Below are positions 5,235 through 61,274 of a stretch of DNA of 64,000 nt, in pieces. Position 1 is the stretch's first letter. Each line of letters begins with the position of its first letter. The position numbers and the translations under genes were made by a program. The notes beneath the pieces were generated by a model, which saw only the letters and a list, made by a program, of their open reading frames with translations, was not told the origin of the DNA and made no database searches. This DNA comes from Prevotella sp. 10(H). GTDB taxonomy: Bacteria > Bacteroidota > Bacteroidia > Bacteroidales > Dysgonomonadaceae. The DNA lies in the NCBI RefSeq assembly GCF_000711235.1, contig NZ_JOMI01000002.1, forward strand, positions 248,001 through 312,000, read 5' to 3'.

Positions 5235-5254
5235 ATTACTTTTTTCCTTTAAAA

Positions 5255-5348
5255 GCTGTTAGCCGTTAGCTATTAGCTTATAGCTGTTGTTAGAGTATTA
5301 TTTGAAACCATCAGCTAATAGCTAAAAGCTATCAGCTAACGGCTATAA
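5255..5348. repeat. Two opposed heptanucleotide arrays in the rpoB-rpoC spacer
   Basis: The left array (5255-5292) reads as successive 7-mers GCTGTTA, GCCGTTA, GCTATTA, GCTTATA, GCTGTTG. The right array (5310-5348) reads CAGCTAA, TAGCTAA, AAGCTAT, CAGCTAA, CGGCTAT. The two are near reverse complements, so the rpoBC transcript should form an imperfect hairpin of roughly 30 bp between the two coding regions. A related array lies at 33329-33364. Confidence 0.8.
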
Positions 5349-5352
5349 GTAT

Positions 5353-8300
5353 TTAGTCGAGGGATACACTTAATCCCAGTCCGCGCATCTCATGCAGCAA
5401 TACGTTGAGCGATTCAGGTATGCCCGGTTGTGGCATCGGTTCACCTTTAACGATAGCTTCATAAGCTTTGGAACGTCCTACAACGTCATCCGACTTGATG
5501 GTAAGGATTTCTCTCAGGATATAAGCCGCACCGAATGCTTCCAGTGCCCAAACCTCCATTTCTCCGAAACGTTGTCCCCCGAATTGAGCTTTACCACCCA
5601 GAGGCTGTTGCGTGATAAGAGAGTAAGGCCCGATAGAACGCGCATGCATCTTATCTTCCACCATGTGTCCGAGTTTCAGCATGTAGATAACACCTACCGT
5701 TGCATGCTGGTCGAACTGGTCTCCTGTACCTCCGTCGAACAAGCGAACTTTACCGTAACGAGGAACGTTGGCTTTGTCAGTCCATGCGTTCAGGTCGTCC
5801 AGACTGGCTCCGTCGAAGATAGGGGTGGCAAATTTCACACCCAGTTCTTTTCCTGCCCAACCCAGTACGGTTTCGAAAATCTGCCCGAGGTTCATACGAG
5901 AAGGCACCCCTAGCGGATTCAATACGATATCCACAGGTGTTCCGTCCGGTAAGAACGGCATATCTTCCTGACGAACTATACGCGATACGATACCTTTGTT
6001 ACCGTGGCGTCCGGCCATCTTATCACCTACCTGTACTTTACGTTTCTTAGCTACATAAACTTTAGCAATCTGAACGATACCGGAAGGAAGTTCATCCCCG
6101 ATAGTCAGGTCGAAACGTTTACGTTTCAGTTCGGCGTCGAGTTCTTTATATTTACGCAGATAGTTTACAACTACGTCGCGTATCAGGTCGTTTTTATGAG
6201 CATCTGTTGTCCAGTTGCTTACCTGAATTGTTTCGTAGTCGATGTTATCCAATGCGCTCTTAGTAAACTTAGTACCTTTGGCAATAATCTCTACATTCAG
6301 ATAATCTTTTACTCCCTGCGATGTCTTACCTTCGGTCAGTACGAGTATTTTATCTACAAGTACGCCTTTCAGCTTAGCCATCTTTTCTTCGTACTCTTCA
6401 TCCAGTTTCGGAAGCAATGCCTTGCTCGAAAGTTTTGTCTTCCCTTTCTTCGATGCTTTAGAGAACAGGTTAGTTCCCACTACCACACCTTTCAGTGAAG
6501 GAGAAGCTTTCAATGAAGCATCTTTCACATCACCGGCCTTGTCACCGAAGATAGCGCGAAGCAGTTTTTCTTCCGGAGAAGGATCCGATTCACCTTTCGG
6601 AGTAATCTTACCGATCAGGATATCTCCCGGGCCTACACGTGCTCCGATACGGATAATACCTCTTTCGTCGAGGTCTTTAGTAGCATCTTCGCTTACGTTA
6701 GGAATATCGGAAGTAAGTTCTTCCACACCGCGTTTAGTGTCGCGAACTTCGAGTACAAATTCTTCTACGTGAACGGAAGTGAATACATCTTCACGGACGA
6801 TACGTTCGTTCAATACGATCGCATCCTCAAAGTTATATCCTTTCCAAGGCATGAATGCTACTTTCAGGTTTTTACCTATAGCCAACTCGCCTTGTTCGGT
6901 AGAATATCCTTCTGTCAGAATCTGATCCAGCACAACCCTGTCACCTTTGCGGCATGTAGGGCGAAGGTCGATAGTAGTATTCTGGTTGGTTTTTCTGAAC
7001 TTAGGGATGTAATATGTTTTGATAGCATCATCGAATGCGACAAAGTCTTCATCGGATGTACGGTCATATTTAATTTTAATAGTGCTTGCATCCACATACA
7101 CCACTTCTCCGGCTCCTTCTGCAACAATCTGGGTACGTGAGTCGCGGATCAGCTGTCCTTCGATACCTGTTCCCACAATCGGAGCTTCGGTACGCATCAA
7201 CGGCACAGCCTGGCGCATCATGTTCGAGCCCATCAGTGCACGGTTAGCATCGTCATGCTCAAGGAAAGGAATCAATGAAGCCGCGATAGAAGCGATCTGT
7301 GTAGGAGATACATCCATCAGTTCGATTTCTTCCGGAGCTACTACCGGATAGTCTGCATCCTGACGCGCTTTTACGCGTTTAAGGATGAATGAACCGTCAT
7401 CATTCAACGGAGCATTACCCTGTGCAATAAGCTTGTCTTCTTCCTCTTCGGCTGCAAGATATACGATACCTTCAGGAGATAAGTCGACTTTGCTGTTAGC
7501 AGCCTTGCGGTACGGAGTCTCGATAAATCCGAGATCGTTTATCTTCGCGTAAACGCAAAGAGACGATATCAGACCGATGTTCGGACCTTCCGGGGTTTCT
7601 ATCGGACAAAGACGGCCATAGTGAGTATAGTGAACGTCACGCACCTCGAAACCTGCTCTTTCACGGGAAAGACCGCCGGGGCCGAGTGCCGACATACGGC
7701 GTTTGTGAGTAATCTCAGCCAGCGGATTCGTTTGATCCATGAACTGAGACAGTGCATTCGTTCCGAAGAATGTATTAACAACGGATGAGATAGTTTTCGC
7801 ATTGATCAGGTCGATCGGCGTAAATACCTCATTGTCGCGAACGTTCATTCTTTCACGAATGATACGCGCCATACGATTGAGACCAACTCCAAACTGGTTG
7901 AAAAGCTGCTCACCAACAGTACGTACACGACGGTTGCTCAAGTGGTCGATATCATCAACTATTGCTTTTGAGTTTATCAACTCGATAAGGAATTTGATGA
8001 TCTCGATGATATCCTCTTTCGTTAATACGCGGATATCCGTACTTGTTGCCAAGCCCAGTTTCTTGTTCAGCCTGTAACGTCCTACCTCTCCGAGGTCGTA
8101 ACGTTTTTCTGAGAAGAACAGGTTGTTGATAACCTCGCGTGCACTGGTATCATCGGCAGGTTCTGCACTACGCAGCTGCCTGTAGATATGACGAACGGCA
8201 TCTATTTCGGAGTTACTAGGGTCTTTCTGCAATGTATTGTAGATAATAGCAAAGTCAGAAATGTTTTGAGAATCCTTGTGTAACAGGATAGACGGCACGT

Positions 8301-26414: not shown

Positions 26415-26430
26415 TTCGGGTATGAAATGT

Positions 26431-26550
26431 GTTACTTTTGTTACCTTTTAACATTTTATCTTGCAAAGACGCAAGGACGCAAAGATATGTTGTTAACTGA
26501 TAACTGTTGACTGACAACTGAATTATCCGTTACTTTCGTTACTTTTTAAC
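26431..26550. repeat. Composite repeat, copy A
   Basis: The left end GTTACTTTTGTTACC-type 23-mer (26431-26453) is identical, in inverted orientation, to 33295-33317. The right end (26529-26550, starting GTTACTTTCGTTACTTTTT) matches 33159-33180 inverted at 20 or more of 22 positions. The interior differs: three 8-mers of type GCAAAGAC (26463-26486) and four heptamers ending ACTG (26493-26520: TTAACTG, ATAACTG, TTGACTG, ACAACTG). Confidence 0.8.
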
Positions 26551-26585
26551 TAAACATAGTTAATATATGTAAATAATATGGGTGC

Positions 26586-33014: not shown

Positions 33015-33158
33015 ATATTTAGTTTTTTCGTTTGCTATTAATTAAATTAACTATTGTTTGTTTCTACTTGTTCAAAATATTTGCCAAGTTAGTGTTTTTG
33101 ACAAAATGACAGTGGTAATTTTCGTGATTATTAATTTAGTATTTGTTAACAATGTTTG

Positions 33159-33317
33159 GTTAAAAAGTAACGAAAGTAATGGAAATTTCAGTTGACAAGT
33201 AAACAAGATACGAGATACGAGTTGAAGACTCGTCTACTTGTTTACCCGTTTACTTGTATCTAATCGAAAGATTTTACATTCATTAACCATATATTGTTAA
33301 AAGGTAACAAAAGTAAC
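33159..33317. repeat. Composite repeat, copy B
   Basis: Inverted relative to copy A at 26431-26550: ends at 33159-33180 and 33295-33317 match copy A's ends (the latter exactly over 23 bp). The interior is unrelated in sequence but again made of 7-mers (33200-33257: AGATACG, AGATACG ... CTACTTG, TTTACCC, GTTTACT) and is self-complementary around 33193-33257. Confidence 0.8.
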
Positions 33318-33328
33318 AGATTTTTCAA

Positions 33329-33364
33329 AGAGCTAATAGCCATCAGCTAACGGCTAAAAGCTAC
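33329..33364. repeat. Heptanucleotide array of the rpoB-rpoC type
   Basis: Reads AGCTAA, TAGCCAT, CAGCTAA, CGGCTAA, AAGCTAC in consecutive 7-bp steps, the same unit family as in the rpoB-rpoC spacer. Confidence 0.75.
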
Positions 33365-52384: not shown

Positions 52385-52407
52385 GCATTGAAATATTATT
52401 ATAATAG

Positions 52408-52440
52408 AAGAGGGTAGCTATTTTTAGGATAGTCCTTTTC
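52408..52440 (+). repeat. Left copy of the island-flanking inverted repeat
   Basis: Begins AAGAGGGTAGCTATTTTTAG. The same sequence with a few differences occurs inverted at 61224-61257. About 30 of 36 positions match allowing single-base gaps. Its own hairpin potential is weak (8-bp stem with two wobble pairs) and no T-run follows. Confidence 0.75.
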
Positions 52441-52569
52441 AAGAGTAATAGACTGTATATCAGATGTAGATATTTGTGGTTTTAGCCATATCCTGCATAT
52501 GTTTCTACATAATGGCTTGGTTATTACTACAATTTTATAAATACAAATATATACAGTTTGTTTTAATCT

Positions 52570-52618
52570 AAAAGCCTATAGATGAAAAGATTTTGAAGTC
52601 TTACATTTATAGGCTTTT
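52570..52618. terminator. Terminator hairpin before the island
   Basis: 11-bp stem AAAAGCCTATA / TATAGGCTTTT with an internal 27-nt part that has its own small pairings. A T-run on the plus-strand side continues TTTTTGCTTTTG. Could end rpsA transcription or, read from the other side, that of the R-M genes. Confidence 0.8.
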
Positions 52619-52714
52619 TGCTTTTGTTTGCTTGGAAATTATTTTTCTACATAACTAATTTCGCTTTAGTTGGTTGTAGTGAATGGAAGTAAAAAAATAA
52701 GCTATTGGTAATAC

Positions 52715-53425
52715 TCAGTTCTGTTGTTCTGAAAAATCAATCCATAAATGTCTCAATTGGATATTATCATCATATACTCGATATGAAATAGAAGAATAAC
52801 TAGACAAAGTATCGTTCTCGTTATTTATCACAAGTAAGTCATTCTCTAGCCAAGTTAATTTATCATCATTTGCGTTCTTAATTTGCTCCTGTATCCAATT
52901 ATTTACTTTTTGAATCCAATACTTTGGAGAATCTGTCTGAATATATCCTATAATTCCAGCATAAACAACATCCTTGCCATGACGTCCATTCTTAAAACGT
53001 TCGATACCTCCTGAATTTTTTACACATTTATTATTTTGATATTCTCCACAAACATATTCCTTCTCTCTGTTTTTAGGTAGTTTAGAGTTTAATCTTTTAG
53101 CTTCAAATTTAATCAGTGAAGGAGAATCATCATCAATATTATTCTCTTGAGCATATGCATGAGTTCCAAATACAGCAAAATCTGTTGATGTATTTTCTTT
53201 ATCATCTTCAATATTTTGATGATGAAAATAAAATGGATATTCAGACGGTTTTTTAGAATTCAGAGTTTTACAAAGTCTATTTGTTATCGCATTTTCATTT
53301 TCGTCATTTTTACCTTTAAAACCAATTAAAATCAGTGATAAGTAGTCATAAACCTTGTTGATTATAGTATTGTCAGGAGCACTACTTAATGTACCAAATG
53401 TATTATTTATTATTTCTCGCATCAC
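52715..53425 (-). CDS. Putative restriction endonuclease partner (PD-(D/E)XK-like)
   Basis: 236 aa. A likely nuclease core is STDFAVFGT, followed after about 20 residues by LIKFEAKRLN, giving the D...ExK pattern of PD-(D/E)XK enzymes near residues 82-110. The following GIERFKNGRHGKDVVYAGIIGYIQ is of the helical-strand type seen after such cores. No family was recognised with certainty. Its start overlaps the end of the methyltransferase gene by 4 bp, so the two are translationally coupled. It is AT-rich compared with rpsA next door, as expected for a transferred gene. Confidence 0.6.
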   Translation of the reverse strand: MMREIINNTFGTLSSAPDNTIINKVYDYLSLILIGFKGKNDENENAITNRLCKTLNSKKPSEYPFYFHHQNIEDDKENTSTDFAVFGTHAYAQENNIDDDSPSLIKFEAKRLNSKLPKNREKEYVCGEYQNNKCVKNSGGIERFKNGRHGKDVVYAGIIGYIQTDSPKYWIQKVNNWIQEQIKNANDDKLTWLENDLLVINNENDTLSSYSSISYRVYDDNIQLRHLWIDFSEQQN

Positions 53426-56400
53426 TTCCCCTGTTTAAATAGATCAACAAATGTTTCATCCGCATCTCTCACAGCAATAGAAGGTAACCAATACCTTCTT
53501 TGATTGGGTTTGTATAAAAATATTACATTTTTATGATATACTTTTACTATTCGTTTAATCCATAAATTATATCCTTGTTTGCTATTTATTAGGTTTTTCA
53601 ATTTAGATTCAATTTCTTCGATAGATGAAGGAATATCTATTTCTGGTTTATCTCCTAAAACAAAGGGATACGCAATAAATTCATTTCCTACAATCGGAGT
53701 GTAAGGTTTGAAATTATCATATATAGAATTAAGAATATCACAATACATTTTCCCATAGACTTCTAATTCTTGGAAATCAACATGAGCTAATACTATGCTC
53801 TTTTCTCCTGCTTTTCTAAAATCTGCATAATAATCAACTATATCATTCAATAATATTTTCTCTATATTATCCAAAGGAATTTGAGGATATGGCAAGTTTA
53901 GAATATCTCCTTTTAAAGGAACACCTTCTCTAGAAGTTAAAACTTGTCCACTTAGTAGCCACATTAAAGGAACACAATTTTCATCTTTTAGATAACTTCC
54001 GAGTTTATGTAAATCTGAAATATCACTTTTAGGTGAGTGGATTCCAAATATTTTATCTTTAAAAGTTAAATATTGATCACTATAAATTACCGGAATGGAT
54101 CTACCAGTTACACTTTCCTTTATTAATAAATGCGGCGGTTGGAATATTTCTTTATTTTTTTTTCGAGGTCTCAAAAAATATTTACTCGTACATATTTCTA
54201 TTTTTGAAATTCCATTCTCTGTAAAACCATCTGTTTCTACATAATTATAGTTTGTGATCCAATCTGCTTTATACCTTTTCTCTAGATTGTTCAGCTCCTT
54301 AATTTCTTCTTCTATTTTATTTTCCTTTAATGAAAGATTTTTAACCCTTTGAATATTTTTTGAATTCGCTGATTCTATCCAACCTTCTGCAACTTTCCAA
54401 TTGTTGTTTTGCACTCTTTCATTCAAGTATTTTCCAACTGTTTGAATATCCTTAGCTGTGATTTTATCTAATAGCTGATGAAGTCTTCCTCCACCCAAAA
54501 AATTTGCCTGCCATACTCCAGGGAGTTTTATTGCTGATTTATAGGGTACCTTATGAATATCATAATGATCAATTTCAAAATCAATTTTTTCACCTGAAGC
54601 TTTTGTTCTTCTAAAAATGTTATGGAAACATGGTTTGCCAGGATTAGCTGCTTTTTCTGCAAAAACAGAGACTACTGCGGGCTTAGCACTAGAACTACTT
54701 CCGATAAATAACTTGGCTCTTAATGATGTAAAATCAAAAATACCCTTAATATAATATTGCTCAAATAAATATTTTCTAAAATCATACGTATTGGTATTAT
54801 ATAAAACAGGACCAGAAGGCAATATTAGACAACAATTTCCTCCCTCACTTAATAATTTGATAGATTGTTCTAGGAATAGTAATGCAATTTGATTGTCTGG
54901 TACAACAGGACGATCCTGATTATTCTCTTTTTCTTGTTTATCTACTGTATTTGCCCAATCAGTAAATTCAGAGTTAAAGGGAGGATTCCCAATTATGAGT
55001 TGAAAATCAGATTTTATTTTTTCTTCTTGTAATGTCTTAAAGAAATCACCTTGATATAAATTACAGCCAATAAGATCATCAAAATGTACATTCCTCCATA
55101 TCTCTCTTGGTGACAATGAATCTAATAAAGCAAGCCCAAGACTGAAATAAGATAGGGTGACAGCTTCATCTTCTAAATCGCAACCGAAAATATTTTTTTG
55201 TAATAAATCTTTAAGCTCTTGAATGTTTTCTTTTTTAGGTCTCTTCCAATTATTTTGAACTCTCCACCATTGAATCATTCTTTTAAAAGCTCCGACAAGA
55301 AAAATTCCAGAGCCACAAGCCGGATCTAAAATTTTAAAATCTTTTTTAGGTTTTTTCAATGGCATGCATTGGTCAATAAGAAACTGAACTAAATATGGAG
55401 GGGTATAGACTACTCCTTTCTTCTTTTGTCCGTTCTCATCAGCTAAAAAATCTTCATATATATGGCTTATTAACTCAATTGGAAGGTAATTAAATTGATA
55501 TAATCGCCAAAGGCTCATTTGCCCTATTCCTTGGTTACCTTCCGCAAAAAATGAAACATCTCCTCTGACAAAATACTGGAAAAGGGTAAGATCTATTTTC
55601 TTTTTGAGCGTTAATAGTTCGTTATCATCCAAATAAAAAATTTGCCCATTAAAATGTTCTTCACTAGAAAGCTCCTTTAGAACATTAACAAACGTATCCA
55701 CATTCTCTAAGACTCCTTCTAATGTTGGATTATGAGGATTGTATGCTTTATAAAATTCGTTAGGATTCAATGCTCCGTTACCATCCTCATCTTTTCTCTC
55801 TTCAAGATACTTTATAAGTATCAGCATCATTAAGATTCGTTTAACTAATGCTGAATTTTCATTTCCTAGACGAGAAATTATATTTGACTTGACATTTTTT
55901 AGTTGGGATAGTAATTGTTCATATGCACCCTCTTCATATTTGAATTGCTTACCTTCATTAGAATCCCAGAATAAACCAGAATCGAATTGACGAACATTAT
56001 AAATATCCAATTTCTGTTGTATATCATCTAACAAATCAATAAAATCATGAGGCGATGTAATAAATTCGCTCCCATCCGTATCCCATTCTGGTTTTTTACC
56101 ACAATTATATATTAGAATTTGAGATGCCCTAATAATGAAACAAAAAGGAACTATTCCTGCATTCCACAATTTATGATGAATATCAGCTTCAGGAGTATTC
56201 AAATTTTGTCCAGACTCATCATAAATATAAATCTGGGGTTTAGGGGGGCGATTGTCATTATAGAATCGAAAATAAACAGCCGTTGCTTCAAATTCGTTAG
56301 CTTGTTCTAATGCTAGAAATAAATCTGGATCATTTTCGTCAGCTCTCTGAGAGACTAAACGCAAACCAGAATATCTATCATTAGACATTCCCAATTTACC

Positions 56401-56439
56401 TAAAGCAGAATGAAATGGTATGTTGGAACCGACACTCAT
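53422..56439 (-). CDS. N6-adenine DNA methyltransferase, Eco57I/TaqI-like (1005 aa)
   Basis: SAM-binding motif I DPACGSGIFLVGAF is at residues 372-385. Catalytic motif IV NPPF is at 485-488, so the target is adenine N6. Residues 1-330 form an N-terminal region with helical bundles (VKRILMMLILIKYLEERK, YEDFLADENGQKKKGVVYTPPYL) like those of type I HsdM and type IIG enzymes. The last 350 residues look like a TaqI-type specificity domain (KIEICTSKYFLRPRKK, FKDKIFGIHSP). No clear nuclease motif was seen in the N-terminus; nuclease activity probably lies in the coupled 236-aa protein. No BREX or DISARM partner genes are present. Confidence 0.85.
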   Translation of the reverse strand: MSVGSNIPFHSALGKLGMSNDRYSGLRLVSQRADENDPDLFLALEQANEFEATAVYFRFYNDNRPPKPQIYIYDESGQNLNTPEADIHHKLWNAGIVPFCFIIRASQILIYNCGKKPEWDTDGSEFITSPHDFIDLLDDIQQKLDIYNVRQFDSGLFWDSNEGKQFKYEEGAYEQLLSQLKNVKSNIISRLGNENSALVKRILMMLILIKYLEERKDEDGNGALNPNEFYKAYNPHNPTLEGVLENVDTFVNVLKELSSEEHFNGQIFYLDDNELLTLKKKIDLTLFQYFVRGDVSFFAEGNQGIGQMSLWRLYQFNYLPIELISHIYEDFLADENGQKKKGVVYTPPYLVQFLIDQCMPLKKPKKDFKILDPACGSGIFLVGAFKRMIQWWRVQNNWKRPKKENIQELKDLLQKNIFGCDLEDEAVTLSYFSLGLALLDSLSPREIWRNVHFDDLIGCNLYQGDFFKTLQEEKIKSDFQLIIGNPPFNSEFTDWANTVDKQEKENNQDRPVVPDNQIALLFLEQSIKLLSEGGNCCLILPSGPVLYNTNTYDFRKYLFEQYYIKGIFDFTSLRAKLFIGSSSSAKPAVVSVFAEKAANPGKPCFHNIFRRTKASGEKIDFEIDHYDIHKVPYKSAIKLPGVWQANFLGGGRLHQLLDKITAKDIQTVGKYLNERVQNNNWKVAEGWIESANSKNIQRVKNLSLKENKIEEEIKELNNLEKRYKADWITNYNYVETDGFTENGISKIEICTSKYFLRPRKKNKEIFQPPHLLIKESVTGRSIPVIYSDQYLTFKDKIFGIHSPKSDISDLHKLGSYLKDENCVPLMWLLSGQVLTSREGVPLKGDILNLPYPQIPLDNIEKILLNDIVDYYADFRKAGEKSIVLAHVDFQELEVYGKMYCDILNSIYDNFKPYTPIVGNEFIAYPFVLGDKPEIDIPSSIEEIESKLKNLINSKQGYNLWIKRIVKVYHKNVIFLYKPNQRRYWLPSIAVRDADETFVDLFKQGK

Positions 56440-56498: not shown

Positions 56499-56774
56499 TT
56501 ATTTATACTTTTCAATATAGTCTCTTATTATTTGTACATCCAATTCTGGAGAGAAACCAAGTCTTATAGTTTCTTTCCAATAAGGCTCTGAGTTGCAAGG
56601 ATTATTACCTGTTCTGAATTTAACATGGAATAAATCTGCTGTTTCAGATCTTTCAAATATATCCATTATCAGATAATCATCATTTGCTAATTTTAAGAAA
56701 TTCATATTACTCTTTGAACATTCTTGAAATCCAAAATGAAATAATATGGACTCTATTTTTTGTAATATACTCAT
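56499..56774 (-). CDS. Small protein of unknown function upstream of the methyltransferase (91 aa)
   Basis: MSILQKIESILFHFGFQECSKSNMNFLKLAN..., a compact alpha/beta protein with a tryptophan and acidic residues near the C-terminus. No helix-turn-helix is recognisable. The frame is open to 56879 but ATG 56774 starts at a natural N-terminus. It is 59 bp upstream of the methyltransferase on the same strand, so it may be the first gene of the R-M operon (controller, inhibitor or specificity partner; inference only). Confidence 0.55.
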   Translation of the reverse strand: MSILQKIESILFHFGFQECSKSNMNFLKLANDDYLIMDIFERSETADLFHVKFRTGNNPCNSEPYWKETIRLGFSPELDVQIIRDYIEKYK

Positions 56775-56931
56775 AATATGGACTTTATTGAAAATTTCAC
56801 TCTGTTCTTCGTATAATTGCTGGATAAAATTGAATAACCATGATAAAGATAATATAAACTTTTTTTCATAAAAAATCATTTTCTCTAAACCTTCCCTATC
56901 CTGACCTCCTATTCTTATACAAATTAATCGG

Positions 56932-56943
56932 TCCCAAGTGGGA
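56932..56943. promoter_or_regulatory. Palindrome in the divergent gap of the island
   Basis: TCCCAAGTGGGA, two 5-bp arms, between the small R-M gene (minus) and the integrase-like gene (plus). Possible operator for either side. Confidence 0.35.
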
Positions 56944-56971
56944 TTATGTCAAACAATTTAATTTTATAAGA

Positions 56972-57895
56972 ATGGAAAACAATTCAAAATCAACAGTTTC
57001 AGAAGTTATCGATCACCTGATCGAAAAATTCAACACACAGGTCAGAGTAAAGAACGGAAAAGAGGTCATAGGTTCCACCAATGCCAAAGACTATAAGATG
57101 TTGAAAAACTCATTGGAGAAATTCGTCTCGGAAAATTATAAGAAACCTTTAGCTGGTTTTACCTTTAGGCAGATTGATTCTGATTTTCTGTCCGGTTATA
57201 TTGAGTATCTTGAAAGACGCGCTGCTAATATGGGAACAAAGGGAGCTCTACCCAACCGTCTGAAAAAACTTCAGGCTGTATTCAACCACGCTCGTGATAT
57301 GGGAATTAAGGGCACTGATTCAACTGTATTCAGTCATATAACAGAACAGATGAAAATATCAGGGGCAACACCCTTAATTCTTTCTGCTGATATAATGAGT
57401 AAGATAGAAAACATCGACCGTTCGTTTTTTTCTCGTACAGAACTGTTTCATATTGACCTGTTCCTGTTCAGTTATTATTCCGGAGGAATGAGTTGTTCCG
57501 ATATGGCCTATCTAACTTATGGGCAGATCAAGAAAGGCATTATTACATACGAAAAGATGAGAACCCGAAAGACTATAGTTGTTCCTCTTATTACAAAATC
57601 TCAGGATATTATAAACCGTTATCGGGATAAATGTTATTCAAATTATGTCTTACCTATATTCTCCGCAAAACACCTGACAGAAAAACAACAGCGCGAAAAA
57701 ATAGACCGTTTGGCATTCAATATCAACCAGACATTAATCAAAGTTCGGAAGCATATTAAGTTCCAGAAGAAAATAACACTAAGCTCCACGCAGGCTGCTT
57801 TTATTGCCAGACTAAAGTCTGCTGATGCCGGAATATATCATATAATCCAAAATACAGGATGCACAATGGAATATATCTGTAAACATTTTCTATAA
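56972..57895 (+). pseudogene. Truncated, catalytically degraded tyrosine-recombinase-like protein
   Basis: 307 aa. It begins directly at the core-binding SAM-like domain (TVSEVIDHLIEKFNTQVRVKNGK). The roughly 105-residue N-terminal arm-binding part present in the two neighbours is missing. In the catalytic part Arg I is absent (YYSGGMSCSDMAYL). The second arginine position reads Q (SSTQAAFIARL near residue 273). The C-terminus ICKHFL replaces the tyrosine-bearing IYKHYW of the neighbours, so the nucleophile is lost. The frame is intact, so it may be an expressed DNA-binding derivative and not a dead gene; that is why both readings are given. Confidence 0.65.
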
Positions 57896-58035: not shown

Positions 58036-59313
58036 TCAGAACAATTCATTCAGATGTATCCGCATCTGTTCCTTATTTGTGTTCACATAATAATATTTAT
58101 AAATTGTCTGCGGGTTATTACCTACCTGTTCCGCTATTTGTAAAGGATGATAGCCCTTGTCAATCAGCATGGAGATAAAACAACTGCGGGCGGTACTCCA
58201 TGTAACTTTTTCCCTGATATGTTCATTGCTACATATCTTGTATAGTGTTTTATTTACTTTCATGGTAAGCCTGCAAACCAGTTCATATTTATGTTTTTCG
58301 GACTGGTTGTATCTTTTGAAGATAGGAAAAACATAATTCATGTAAGCTTCTTTTCTGTATTTTTCGATTAGGTCTTTTGCCTTGTCTATTACTATTAATA
58401 TTACACGGACCTGCTTGTTGCATTTTATCCTTTCAAACACCAGTTCGTCTTTTTTCACACACAAGCGTGTAAGAAAGCATATATCAATATTGGATATCCC
58501 GCCGGCATAATAACTGAAAAGGAACAGATCTAAATGGAACTGTTCGCATCTGCTCAGAAAGGATCGGTCTGTATTTTCGATTAACCGCATAGATTCGGAT
58601 GTAATAGCTTTAGGTATGAAAAAACGGGATTTAAATTTATCACGTATAGGATCAAAGGCAGAAATATCTACCCCATATATTCCTTTCTTTCTGGCATATG
58701 TAAAAGTGGCACGAAGGTATTTCAGTTTGGCATAAACACCTCCGTTATTACCTTTTTTTGCTCCCTGCTGCTGTACATAAACACCATATTCTGTAATGAA
58801 TTTCTCATTTATATCCCGAAACAGGAATTTGGAGAATTCTTTCCGGTACTTAAGTCTGGTAAAACTTTCAAGTGATCTCTTAAGAATTTTATAACCTTTG
58901 GCCGTATTGGCACTGCTGAGAGTTATTCCGTTTTTCACACGCTTACGATTCATGAAATAATCGATAATATGATCTAGCATGGAAGAAACCGTTGTAAACC
59001 GGTCTTTATATTTCCTGTGCTCGTCATAATAATGGGATAATTCCAAAGGCGTCCATTCCTTGCCTTGAAATTCCCATCTTTCTGCTACCTTCAGATATTT
59101 CAAGATTATTTTCCGAAGCAGATGATTCTTTGAGTTGATCTCGGTAGTATTTCCAGCAAAACACTGTTTCTTCTGATTCCAGTCTTTGTATAAACCGGAT
59201 ATACAGATAGCCTTGGTAATTCGTGAATAACCGGTTCGGTAGAATACAATTTTCAGGCGAACCATTTGGATGTCTTTTGGAGAACGCTCTCCTTTAATGC
59301 GGATAGTAAACAT
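58036..59313 (-). CDS. Tyrosine recombinase of the GGM subfamily (425 aa)
   Basis: N-terminal arm-binding domain (about 1-105: MFTIRIKGERSPKDIQMVRLK, ISGLYKDWNQKK), core-binding domain (about 110-240) and catalytic domain. The second catalytic arginine (WSTARSCF, near 377) and the tyrosine (TIYKYYY, near 406) are present. The first arginine is not at its usual place: the segment reads FSYYAGGISNIDICFL where related integrases have ARGM. Start ATG 59313 gives the same N-terminus as the neighbour at 61040. No phage or conjugation genes are nearby. Confidence 0.85.
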   Translation of the reverse strand: MFTIRIKGERSPKDIQMVRLKIVFYRTGYSRITKAICISGLYKDWNQKKQCFAGNTTEINSKNHLLRKIILKYLKVAERWEFQGKEWTPLELSHYYDEHRKYKDRFTTVSSMLDHIIDYFMNRKRVKNGITLSSANTAKGYKILKRSLESFTRLKYRKEFSKFLFRDINEKFITEYGVYVQQQGAKKGNNGGVYAKLKYLRATFTYARKKGIYGVDISAFDPIRDKFKSRFFIPKAITSESMRLIENTDRSFLSRCEQFHLDLFLFSYYAGGISNIDICFLTRLCVKKDELVFERIKCNKQVRVILIVIDKAKDLIEKYRKEAYMNYVFPIFKRYNQSEKHKYELVCRLTMKVNKTLYKICSNEHIREKVTWSTARSCFISMLIDKGYHPLQIAEQVGNNPQTIYKYYYVNTNKEQMRIHLNELF

Positions 59314-59756: not shown

Positions 59757-61040
59757 TTAAAACATCTCATTCATATGCTTAAGTACGTCATCTTTATGAG
59801 TCTGATCCCAATAATGCTTATAGATTGTATTGGGGCTATTGCCTGCAAATTTTGCCACAGCAATCGGATGGTATCCTTCATCAATCATCTTGGTAATAAA
59901 GGTACCCCTTGCTGCATACCAGGTAAATTCTTTTTCAAGTTTTAATTCCCGGGCAACTTTCTTTAATGTCCTGTTTACTTTCTCCTGAAGACGCTTTACA
60001 CGTTTGAATTGCTGGTGTTCTGTTTTGTGCTTAACCGTAAATATAGGGAGTACATAGTTTTGGAAACATTTATCCTTATACTTTTCTACAATAGCTTTAG
60101 CCTTTTTATTGAATGGCATCTCAGCCTCTTTCGGGAATTTAGTCCGTTCATAAATGATTATATCATCCACAATACAATCCCATATCAGATAACAAACATC
60201 GATACTAGCCATACCTCCGGTATAGAAACTGAATAAAAAAATATCTATCCAGAAGATCTCTTTTTTACTGAATATGGATTTATCCATTTCTTCCATCTGT
60301 GTAATAATTTTGTAGGGAATTGTCTGAGGTGGATTTTCTTTCCTTTTGAAATGCTGACTGACACAATCAAAAATTCTCTTATCCGTATAGGGTTGTCCCA
60401 TCAGGCTGGCATTATAAAATACACCGACAAACTTCTTAAGTCTTTCAGGAAGTCCTGCACTTGTTCCTTCTTTAAGCCCTCTTTCCTGAAGATAGAAGAC
60501 AAAATCTTTCAGGAATTTCTCATCTATATCTCTGAAATAGTAAGTAGAAAAACTTCTGTCATATACTTCCTGTGTAAATTTTTGTAGCTGTGATCGAAGA
60601 TAATAATATTGCCGAGCATTATTAACACAGGATATGAACTTACCGTTCTTGAGCCTCTTCTGGTCTTTCATATTCTCTATGATGATATCGATACACTGTG
60701 ATATTGGTAGGACCTTTACCTTTTTCGTCCGTATATTTTTGTCTTCCGTATCGAAATAATGTGACCACTGGACAGGTGACCATTCAATGCCTTCAGCTTC
60801 CCATCCTTCGGCAACCTTCTGATATTTGAGCCTAAGATCGATAAGAATTTTATTCTTTCCGGCTGCATCTTTTGATTTGGGCTTAAAGTTTTGCGTTGCC
60901 TGATCCCAGTCTTCATACCTTCCCGATACATTTAATGCTTTAGATACTCTGGGATAACCTGTCTGGAATAAAATCATATCCAGTTTTACCAGCTTACCGT
61001 CTTTAGGGTGTGGTTTTCCTTTGAAGTTAATTGTATACAT
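59757..61040 (-). CDS. Tyrosine recombinase of the GGM subfamily (427 aa)
   Basis: Paralogue of the 425-aa protein. N-terminal arm-binding domain (MYTINFKGKPHPKDGKLVKLD, NVSGRYEDWDQ), core-binding domain, catalytic domain with arginine in WYAARGTF (near 376) and tyrosine in TIYKHYW (near 407). Arg I is again missing (FYTGGMASIDVCYL) and the histidine after the second arginine is glycine. The protein is full length. Its upstream region carries recombinase-site-like inverted repeats, unlike the other two genes, so it may be the active member. Confidence 0.87.
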   Translation of the reverse strand: MYTINFKGKPHPKDGKLVKLDMILFQTGYPRVSKALNVSGRYEDWDQATQNFKPKSKDAAGKNKILIDLRLKYQKVAEGWEAEGIEWSPVQWSHYFDTEDKNIRTKKVKVLPISQCIDIIIENMKDQKRLKNGKFISCVNNARQYYYLRSQLQKFTQEVYDRSFSTYYFRDIDEKFLKDFVFYLQERGLKEGTSAGLPERLKKFVGVFYNASLMGQPYTDKRIFDCVSQHFKRKENPPQTIPYKIITQMEEMDKSIFSKKEIFWIDIFLFSFYTGGMASIDVCYLIWDCIVDDIIIYERTKFPKEAEMPFNKKAKAIVEKYKDKCFQNYVLPIFTVKHKTEHQQFKRVKRLQEKVNRTLKKVARELKLEKEFTWYAARGTFITKMIDEGYHPIAVAKFAGNSPNTIYKHYWDQTHKDDVLKHMNEMF

Positions 61041-61065
61041 TATTAAGTGGTTTTAATTGCCATTT

Positions 61066-61098
61066 ATGTAGGATTAATTCCTACATATTATTCTACAT
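61066..61098. promoter_or_regulatory. Inverted plus direct half-sites upstream of the 427-aa recombinase
   Basis: ATGTAGGA (61066-61073), 5-nt spacer TTAAT, TCCTACAT (61079-61086), then a third half-site TTCTACAT (61091-61098) in the same orientation, 12 bp further. The pair starts 26 bp upstream of the ATG. Geometry fits an operator or a recombinase core site (arms of 8-9 bp, short spacer). Confidence 0.55.
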
Positions 61099-61119
61099 GA
61101 GAATAGGGCTATACCACGA

Positions 61120-61173
61120 AAAAGGTTTACTCTGAGTATATTTTAGTATATAACCCGTACGAGTAAACCTTTT
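61120..61173. repeat. 13-bp perfect inverted repeat at the island end
   Basis: AAAAGGTTTACTC (61120-61132) and GAGTAAACCTTTT (61161-61173), 28-nt spacer rich in TATA steps. It lies between the recombinase and the right island repeat. A terminator role is possible (TTTTT follows on the minus side), but it has the look of a paired protein-binding site. Confidence 0.6.
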
Positions 61174-61223
61174 AAATATCTTACAATCTTTTGGTTACAG
61201 AATATTACTCTGTATATATATGA

Positions 61224-61257
61224 AAAAGAGGCTGTCCTAAAAATAAGCTACCCTCTT
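61224..61257 (-). repeat. Right copy of the island-flanking inverted repeat
   Basis: On the minus strand AAGAGGGTAGCTTATTTTTAGG continues AGCCTC and so pairs with itself; AGAGG and CCTCT stems plus a T-run also make it the likely terminator of the minus-strand regulator gene ending at 61275. Inverted match of 52408-52440. Confidence 0.75.
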
Positions 61258-61274
61258 TTTTTATTACCTGTTTG

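Follow-up and report, generated by a model that had tools for sequence, protein, structure and literature searches.

Several described mobile elements carry more than one tyrosine recombinase, and in some of them a recombinase-fold component lacks catalytic residues, as is the case for GinC of the GInts and Tfp of SE (PMC10214605, PMC5385486). All four gin genes of the GInts, ginC included, are essential, and GInts are on record in Bacteroidetes (PMC5385486). The tfp gene of SE could not be deleted (PMC10214605), and SE is further characterized by a circular copy with a 6-bp left flank that leaves no empty site behind. The archetype RIT has three tyrosine recombinases, all of which keep the catalytic Tyr, and Tn554 has several but no dead recombinase-fold protein (PMC10214605). 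Outside such elements, MrpR (YopR) of SPbeta is a dead recombinase-fold master repressor which occupies repeated operators and keeps Tyr and Lys (PMC10516654). In the IntCTnDOT subgroup of active enzymes, the first catalytic Arg can be absent, its function being taken by a downstream Arg (PMC8138268).

The window analyzed here, a 64,000-nucleotide stretch of Prevotella sp. 10(H), is part of one contig (C2) of a near-complete genome. It contains an element of about 8.9 kb with the order left end, cargo, dead Int, Int2, Int3, and right end, where dead Int denotes the product of the open reading frame (ORF) at 56972-57895 (+) and Int2 and Int3 its two neighboring recombinases. The features of the element are as follows.

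52401-52439, plus strand: left junction, with the outer arm and loop of a putative split host terminator (about 52408-52425), then the inner half-site AGGATAGTCCTTTT (52426-52439)
52440-52625, plus strand: conserved subterminal left end, 83-90% identical at six other loci (G000, G001, G017, G018)
52715-53425, minus strand: cargo, 236-aa protein of no known family, overlapping the methylase gene
53422-56439, minus strand: cargo, type IIG-like DNA methyltransferase/restriction protein of 1005 aa (N6_Mtase, Eco57I; Pfam, PADLOC)
56499-56879, minus strand: cargo, ORF of 126 aa that matches no family and has no counterpart in the element of Dysgonomonas hofstadii
56887-56971, plus strand: conserved block upstream of the dead Int gene, with dyad arms at about 56911-56927 and 56957-56973 and the center TCCCAAGTGGGA
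56972-57895, plus strand: dead Int, tyrosine-recombinase fold, 307 aa, core-binding and catalytic domains without arm domain or C-terminal tail
58036-59313, minus strand: Int2, tyrosine recombinase retaining the alternative Arg, Lys, Arg II, and Tyr, 76% identical to D. hofstadii Int2
59757-61040, minus strand: Int3, tyrosine recombinase adjoining the right end and retaining the same four residues as Int2, 83% identical to D. hofstadii Int3
61041-61221, minus strand: subterminal right end, located upstream of Int3 and conserved with 80-94% identity at two loci of G001 and in G009 and G029
61222-61264, minus strand: right junction, in which the half-site AGGACAGCCTCTTT on the inner side (61225-61238, minus strand) is joined by a loop and by the outer arm of the putative split terminator

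With two catalytic tyrosine recombinases, a third without catalytic residues, and cargo between imperfectly repeated ends, the element resembles GInts and SE. It differs from both in layout. GInts have a ginABCD operon at the 5' end with a small GinD and SE has the operon intA-tfp-intB-srap, whereas the dead Int gene is convergent to Int2 (of which a longer TTG-started ORF extends to 59409), and Int3 lies at the other end. In the ORF listing, no further credible ORF that could be a GinD or Srap counterpart was found between the recombinase genes. Dead Int also stands apart from the third recombinases of GInts and SE in being a 307-aa protein that lacks both termini and shares as much as 45% identity with local integrases that are intact. 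The element is not an RIT either, as an RIT has three consecutive recombinases, each with its catalytic Tyr.

The outermost 25 nt of the element, in the left junction and at 61240-61264, form an inverted repeat with 84% identity. The inner half-sites of the two ends are alike and inverted, whereas the outer part of the repeat looks target-derived; SE, by comparison, has imperfect terminal inverted repeats of about 13-19 bp. In an alignment of the left ends of seven loci from four genomes, the sequence is conserved inside the element and variable outside, and beyond the inner half-sites lies locus-specific sequence resembling hairpin arms with a T tract. The site occupied here lies between rpsA and a MarR-like gene, and in D. 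hofstadii the hairpin arms are those of the ilvC terminator. In four other genomes (G003, G009, G012, and G020), ilvC is followed by an unbroken terminator and then by a homologue of the gene found beyond the D. hofstadii element. The simplest reading of these sequences is that the element inserts into the loop of a host intrinsic terminator and that its inner arms restore the hairpin at both ends; an outermost inverted repeat such as the one observed is expected from a split palindrome. SE attB sites, in contrast, are reported to have no inverted-repeat structure (PMC9345347). The element is presumably mobile. An empty rpsA/MarR site was sought via the MarR gene across the genus, and rpsA was not found at those loci. 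The terminal hairpin, searched with a strict pattern as a genome-wide repeat, gave zero matches in the genome itself. TGTAGRA arm-type motifs common to both ends were rejected as candidates, as their 13 occurrences in the window compare with 10.2 expected and are not significant.

A decayed relative is present on contig C3 of the same genome, where a left end (L055:702-894) is 83% identical to the one described here. About 8.6 kb from it lies what is left of an Int2-like gene, 60 C-terminal residues with 82% identity to Int2 (L055:9459-9650). Elsewhere in the window, long inverted repeats (57 nt with 86% and 35 nt with 91% identity) are found at 26425-26568 and 33141-33323, about 6.6-6.8 kb apart. 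A cluster of short AGCTGTTAGC-type inverted repeats is located between rpoC and rpoB (5250-5355), with a related copy at 33328-33362.

An orthologue of dead Int, 74% identical over 304 residues, was found in D. hofstadii (G001, NZ_JACIEP010000003.1), where its neighbor is the Int2 orthologue and Int3 follows at a distance of about 9 kb. The left cargo of that element, divergent from dead Int, consists of a 538-aa ATPase and a 232-aa protein, and between Int2 and Int3 there is a three-gene Lamassu-type cluster of an LmuB-like SMC protein and its partner genes (L043:11245-15534). Because an ATPase and a Lamassu-like system make up the D. hofstadii cargo, the tie to restriction-modification genes drawn in the preliminary description appears to be incidental, and the dead form is not always beside such genes, as had been put forward for checking; what stays the same is the mobile element. 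The constant context of dead Int is two catalytic recombinases and conserved ends. Sibling elements do occur without it: one (L048) has Int2 and Int3 with no dead copy adjoining Int2, its other end probably being on a separate contig (L107) with a gap between, and two (L049 and L111) have Int3 alone with no dead copy beside it. Not every member of the family therefore needs dead Int. A conserved 339-aa protein (MYRRFL...) was observed near lone or paired family integrases in three genomes (L046:11621-12640, L047:7971-8990, and L049:7751-8770).

The dead Int ORF is an unbroken frame of 307 codons. Compared with Int2 and Int3, the protein starts at the core-binding domain. Its alignment with Int3 begins only at about Int3 residue 103-112, leaving the N-terminal stretch of Int3 without a counterpart, which indicates that the arm domain is absent. 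The stop codon follows one residue past F306, so that the C-terminal tail of about 20 residues is gone as well. Pfam recognizes the domain Phage_int_SAM_5 (7.5e-8). The preliminary description, which had listed an intact 307-codon frame, a well-kept core-binding domain, and the absence of the first 105 or so residues, was accurate in these respects.

Catalytic residues were compared in an alignment of 20 proteins, comprising 18 full-length relatives and the dead proteins from this window and D. hofstadii. At the canonical Arg I position all members, both neighbors included, have Gly, and the absence of this Arg is therefore a family trait and not a loss by dead Int, contrary to what had been stated in the preliminary description. 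A conserved Arg in a YxR motif, 24 residues downstream of the canonical Arg I position, is the obvious candidate to substitute for it in the Int2/Int3 family. This alternative downstream Arg, the N-terminal arm domain of Int2 and Int3, and their occurrence in Bacteroidota are shared with IntDOT (PMC8138268). Int2 and Int3 nevertheless form a family of their own, and dead Int differs from IntDOT in lacking the arm domain and catalytic residues. The active sites of SE are of the RHRY type, whereas the residue sets of Int2 and Int3 are IntDOT-like.

The alternative Arg, Lys, Arg II, and Tyr are retained in 18/18 full-length relatives. In both dead proteins they are replaced by K195, R197, Q274, and F306, respectively, and the first two of these, the changes of the YxR Arg and of the catalytic Lys, are the distinguishing mark of dead Int. 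Q in place of Arg II near residue 273, and Cys and Phe at the two C-terminal Tyr positions (C303 and F306), had been noticed before and are borne out by the alignment. Of the latter two columns, that of C303 holds F or E in three relatives with all other residues kept (L046, L050, and L051). Only the F306 column is invariantly Tyr in the family, which identifies F306 as the replacement of the nucleophile. The catalytic Arg, Lys, Arg II, and Tyr needed for an active IntDOT-like recombinase are all missing from dead Int, as is the arm-binding domain that such an enzyme also needs, which supports the view that dead Int is catalytically inactive.

An AlphaFold2 model built from nine sequences (pLDDT 85.9, pTM 0.62) has helices through residue 306 and contains both the core-binding and the catalytic domain of the tyrosine-recombinase fold. 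In structural comparisons (Foldseek, VIA-align 2), its best match was Tn1549 Int (Z 16.9, rmsd 3.3 over 268 residues), followed by lambda Int (Z 16.4), both matches spanning residues 6-307, and XerH and Cre were matched as well. The DNA clamp of dead Int thus appears intact in the model; fold likeness alone shows no function. Among the lower-ranked matches were the repressors SroF (9rd5; Z 12.3) and MrpR/YopR (Z 10.2-10.6, with 10.2 for 8a0a). Like MrpR, dead Int combines a tyrosine-recombinase fold and lost catalysis with core-binding and catalytic domains that stand without an arm domain. MrpR and SroF of phi3T (PDB 9rd5, 9rgl) are phage master repressors to which the likeness is at the level of the fold only (Z 10.2-12.3), and as they score below active integrases, the structural matches give no specific pointer to a repressor. 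A sequence search of solved structures with dead Int gave no match.

The 85 bp upstream of the dead Int gene are 90.6% identical at the nucleotide level to D. hofstadii, compared with 76.4% for the coding sequence, and this homology ends near the cargo boundary. The dyad in this block is centered on TCCC-N4-GGGA, and its right arm overlaps the dead Int start codon. The block folds better than shuffled sequences (z -2.9 and -3.2). An ungapped dyad as good was found in 0/100 shuffles for D. hofstadii and in 6/100 for this window, where the result is marginal. Within the element, the dyad arms occur in the upstream block only, as a single occurrence, and the dyad is lost from decayed copies. As a core-type recombination site the block was rejected, its best half-site score ranking 772 in the window, unlike the element ends. 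Since it is conserved above the coding sequence and is unlike the end half-sites, an operator is favored over a recombination site, and the block is probably the operator or leader of the dead Int gene.

We favor, with some confidence, the interpretation that dead Int is a non-catalytic DNA-binding partner of Int2 and Int3, most likely a repressor or modulator that acts on the expression of the recombinases and on the movement of the element. An IntDOT-like tyrosine recombinase would have lost its arm-binding domain, its C-terminal tail, and four catalytic side chains, with the core-binding domain and catalytic clamp retained and presumably kept by selection ever since the copies found in at least two species shared an ancestor. 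The remaining protein would bind DNA but not cleave it. Its probable target is the dyad-bearing block upstream of its own gene, with sites common to Int2 and Int3 as possible further targets, and such binding would repress or modulate recombinase expression and movement of the element much as MrpR acts on its operators. MrpR operators are repeated, whereas the dyad here occurs once in the element. Further points that weigh against this interpretation are that intact sequences number only two, that copies in one MAG (G024) are broken, that omega is higher than for Int2 and Int3, that sibling elements lack a dead copy beside their recombinases, that the dyad is marginal in the window, and that MrpR and SroF rank below active integrases as structural matches.

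The close alternative is that dead Int is structural, a non-cutting protomer or bridging factor in the Int2/Int3 synaptic complex that is needed for integration or excision, as GinC is; we regard this as rather unlikely, though deserving of serious consideration. Two intact recombinases and one dead one are kept together in one element in two species, the near-conservative changes (R to K, K to R, R to Q, and Y to F) could preserve DNA contacts, and in the known systems the corresponding proteins are required (all four gin genes including ginC) or their gene is not deletable (SE tfp). The C-terminal tail of tyrosine recombinases contacts the next protomer, and dead Int has neither this tail nor an arm domain. 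Furthermore, its gene is convergent to Int2 and not operonic with Int2 and Int3, and the siblings with Int2 and Int3 or with Int3 only seem to manage without it. Together with the conserved dyad of its own, these features make a regulatory role likelier than a structural one. The earlier proposal of a retained, integrase-derived DNA-binding repressor or architectural protein therefore holds in that the protein is retained, dead, and predicted to have a DNA-binding fold, with a repressor or modulator as the likelier of the two roles.

That the gene is a pseudogene in decay, left from a duplicated integrase and passively transported with the element, is already disfavored, and we consider it very improbable. 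Four catalytic residues and both ends have been lost, and a low-completeness MAG (G024) holds two broken copies with the same start point as dead Int, one of which retains part of the upstream block. With only two intact dead Int sequences known and these copies broken, the gene can evidently be lost. The open frame, however, has the same ends in two species at 74% amino acid identity and dS of about 1. The truncated start, the early stop with its KHFL end, and the four substitutions are common to both, which is not due to chance, and the simplest reading is that selection acted after inactivation. By pairwise maximum likelihood on the two sequences, omega of dead Int is 0.175 (dN 0.175, dS 1.0), with a likelihood ratio of 94 against omega 1 and all three regions below 0.21. 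By the same method omega is 0.076 for Int2 and 0.034 for Int3, so that constraint on dead Int, whose omega is 2-5x theirs, is weaker than on both, which is a point in favor of decay. Conservation of the upstream block above the level of the coding sequence and the complete fold predicted at high confidence again argue against it. In the tree, the dead pair forms a clade (100/100) with a long stem (0.97), whose sister group is not settled. A Tyr-less clade of its own with dN/dS below 1, as the preliminary description had suggested looking for, is thus what was found. As judged from sequence comparison, the dead Int gene is real, intact, and under purifying selection, and not a recent pseudogene.

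No other copies of the dead form were detected among 101 family genomes (E <= 1e-40), viral contigs, plasmids, and phages; the search of genome contigs returned D. hofstadii alone, and plasmid and phage matches were at most 35% identical and were to other integrases or fragments. One genome per species was compared, and the conservation described is thus between species only. That dead Int is still an active recombinase working through other residues is hardly credible, for although the family already has an alternative to the canonical Arg I, both species have other residues at all four invariant positions (alternative Arg, Lys, Arg II, and Tyr), and Cys stands where a second Tyr might have served.

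A role of this kind had been thought undescribed in the phylum. This does not stand in full, given that GInts occur in Bacteroidetes and that Tfp, GinC, and MrpR are known; what is new is that dead Int apparently descends, within Dysgonomonas (Bacteroidota), from an IntDOT-like enzyme, along with the non-operonic layout and the putative terminator-loop target. The high identity of dead Int to local integrases would point to an independent origin. We tentatively propose, with doubts somewhat stronger than our conviction, that a dead recombinase arose independently in Bacteroidota as an element regulator or subunit, in a family of elements that split terminator loops and restore the hairpins at their ends.

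The dead third recombinases of GInts are required and SE tfp is undeletable. Dead Int is a useful case for asking what such proteins do: it still shares as much as 45% identity with intact relatives, the residues that its ancestor used for catalysis can be read off directly, and siblings with and without it exist in the genus; the sibling contrast and the readable residues make the choice between repressor and structural subunit directly testable. The finding also suggests more than one evolutionary origin of regulators or subunits derived from integrases, and it connects the spread of defense genes of the restriction-modification and Lamassu-like kinds with a small element.
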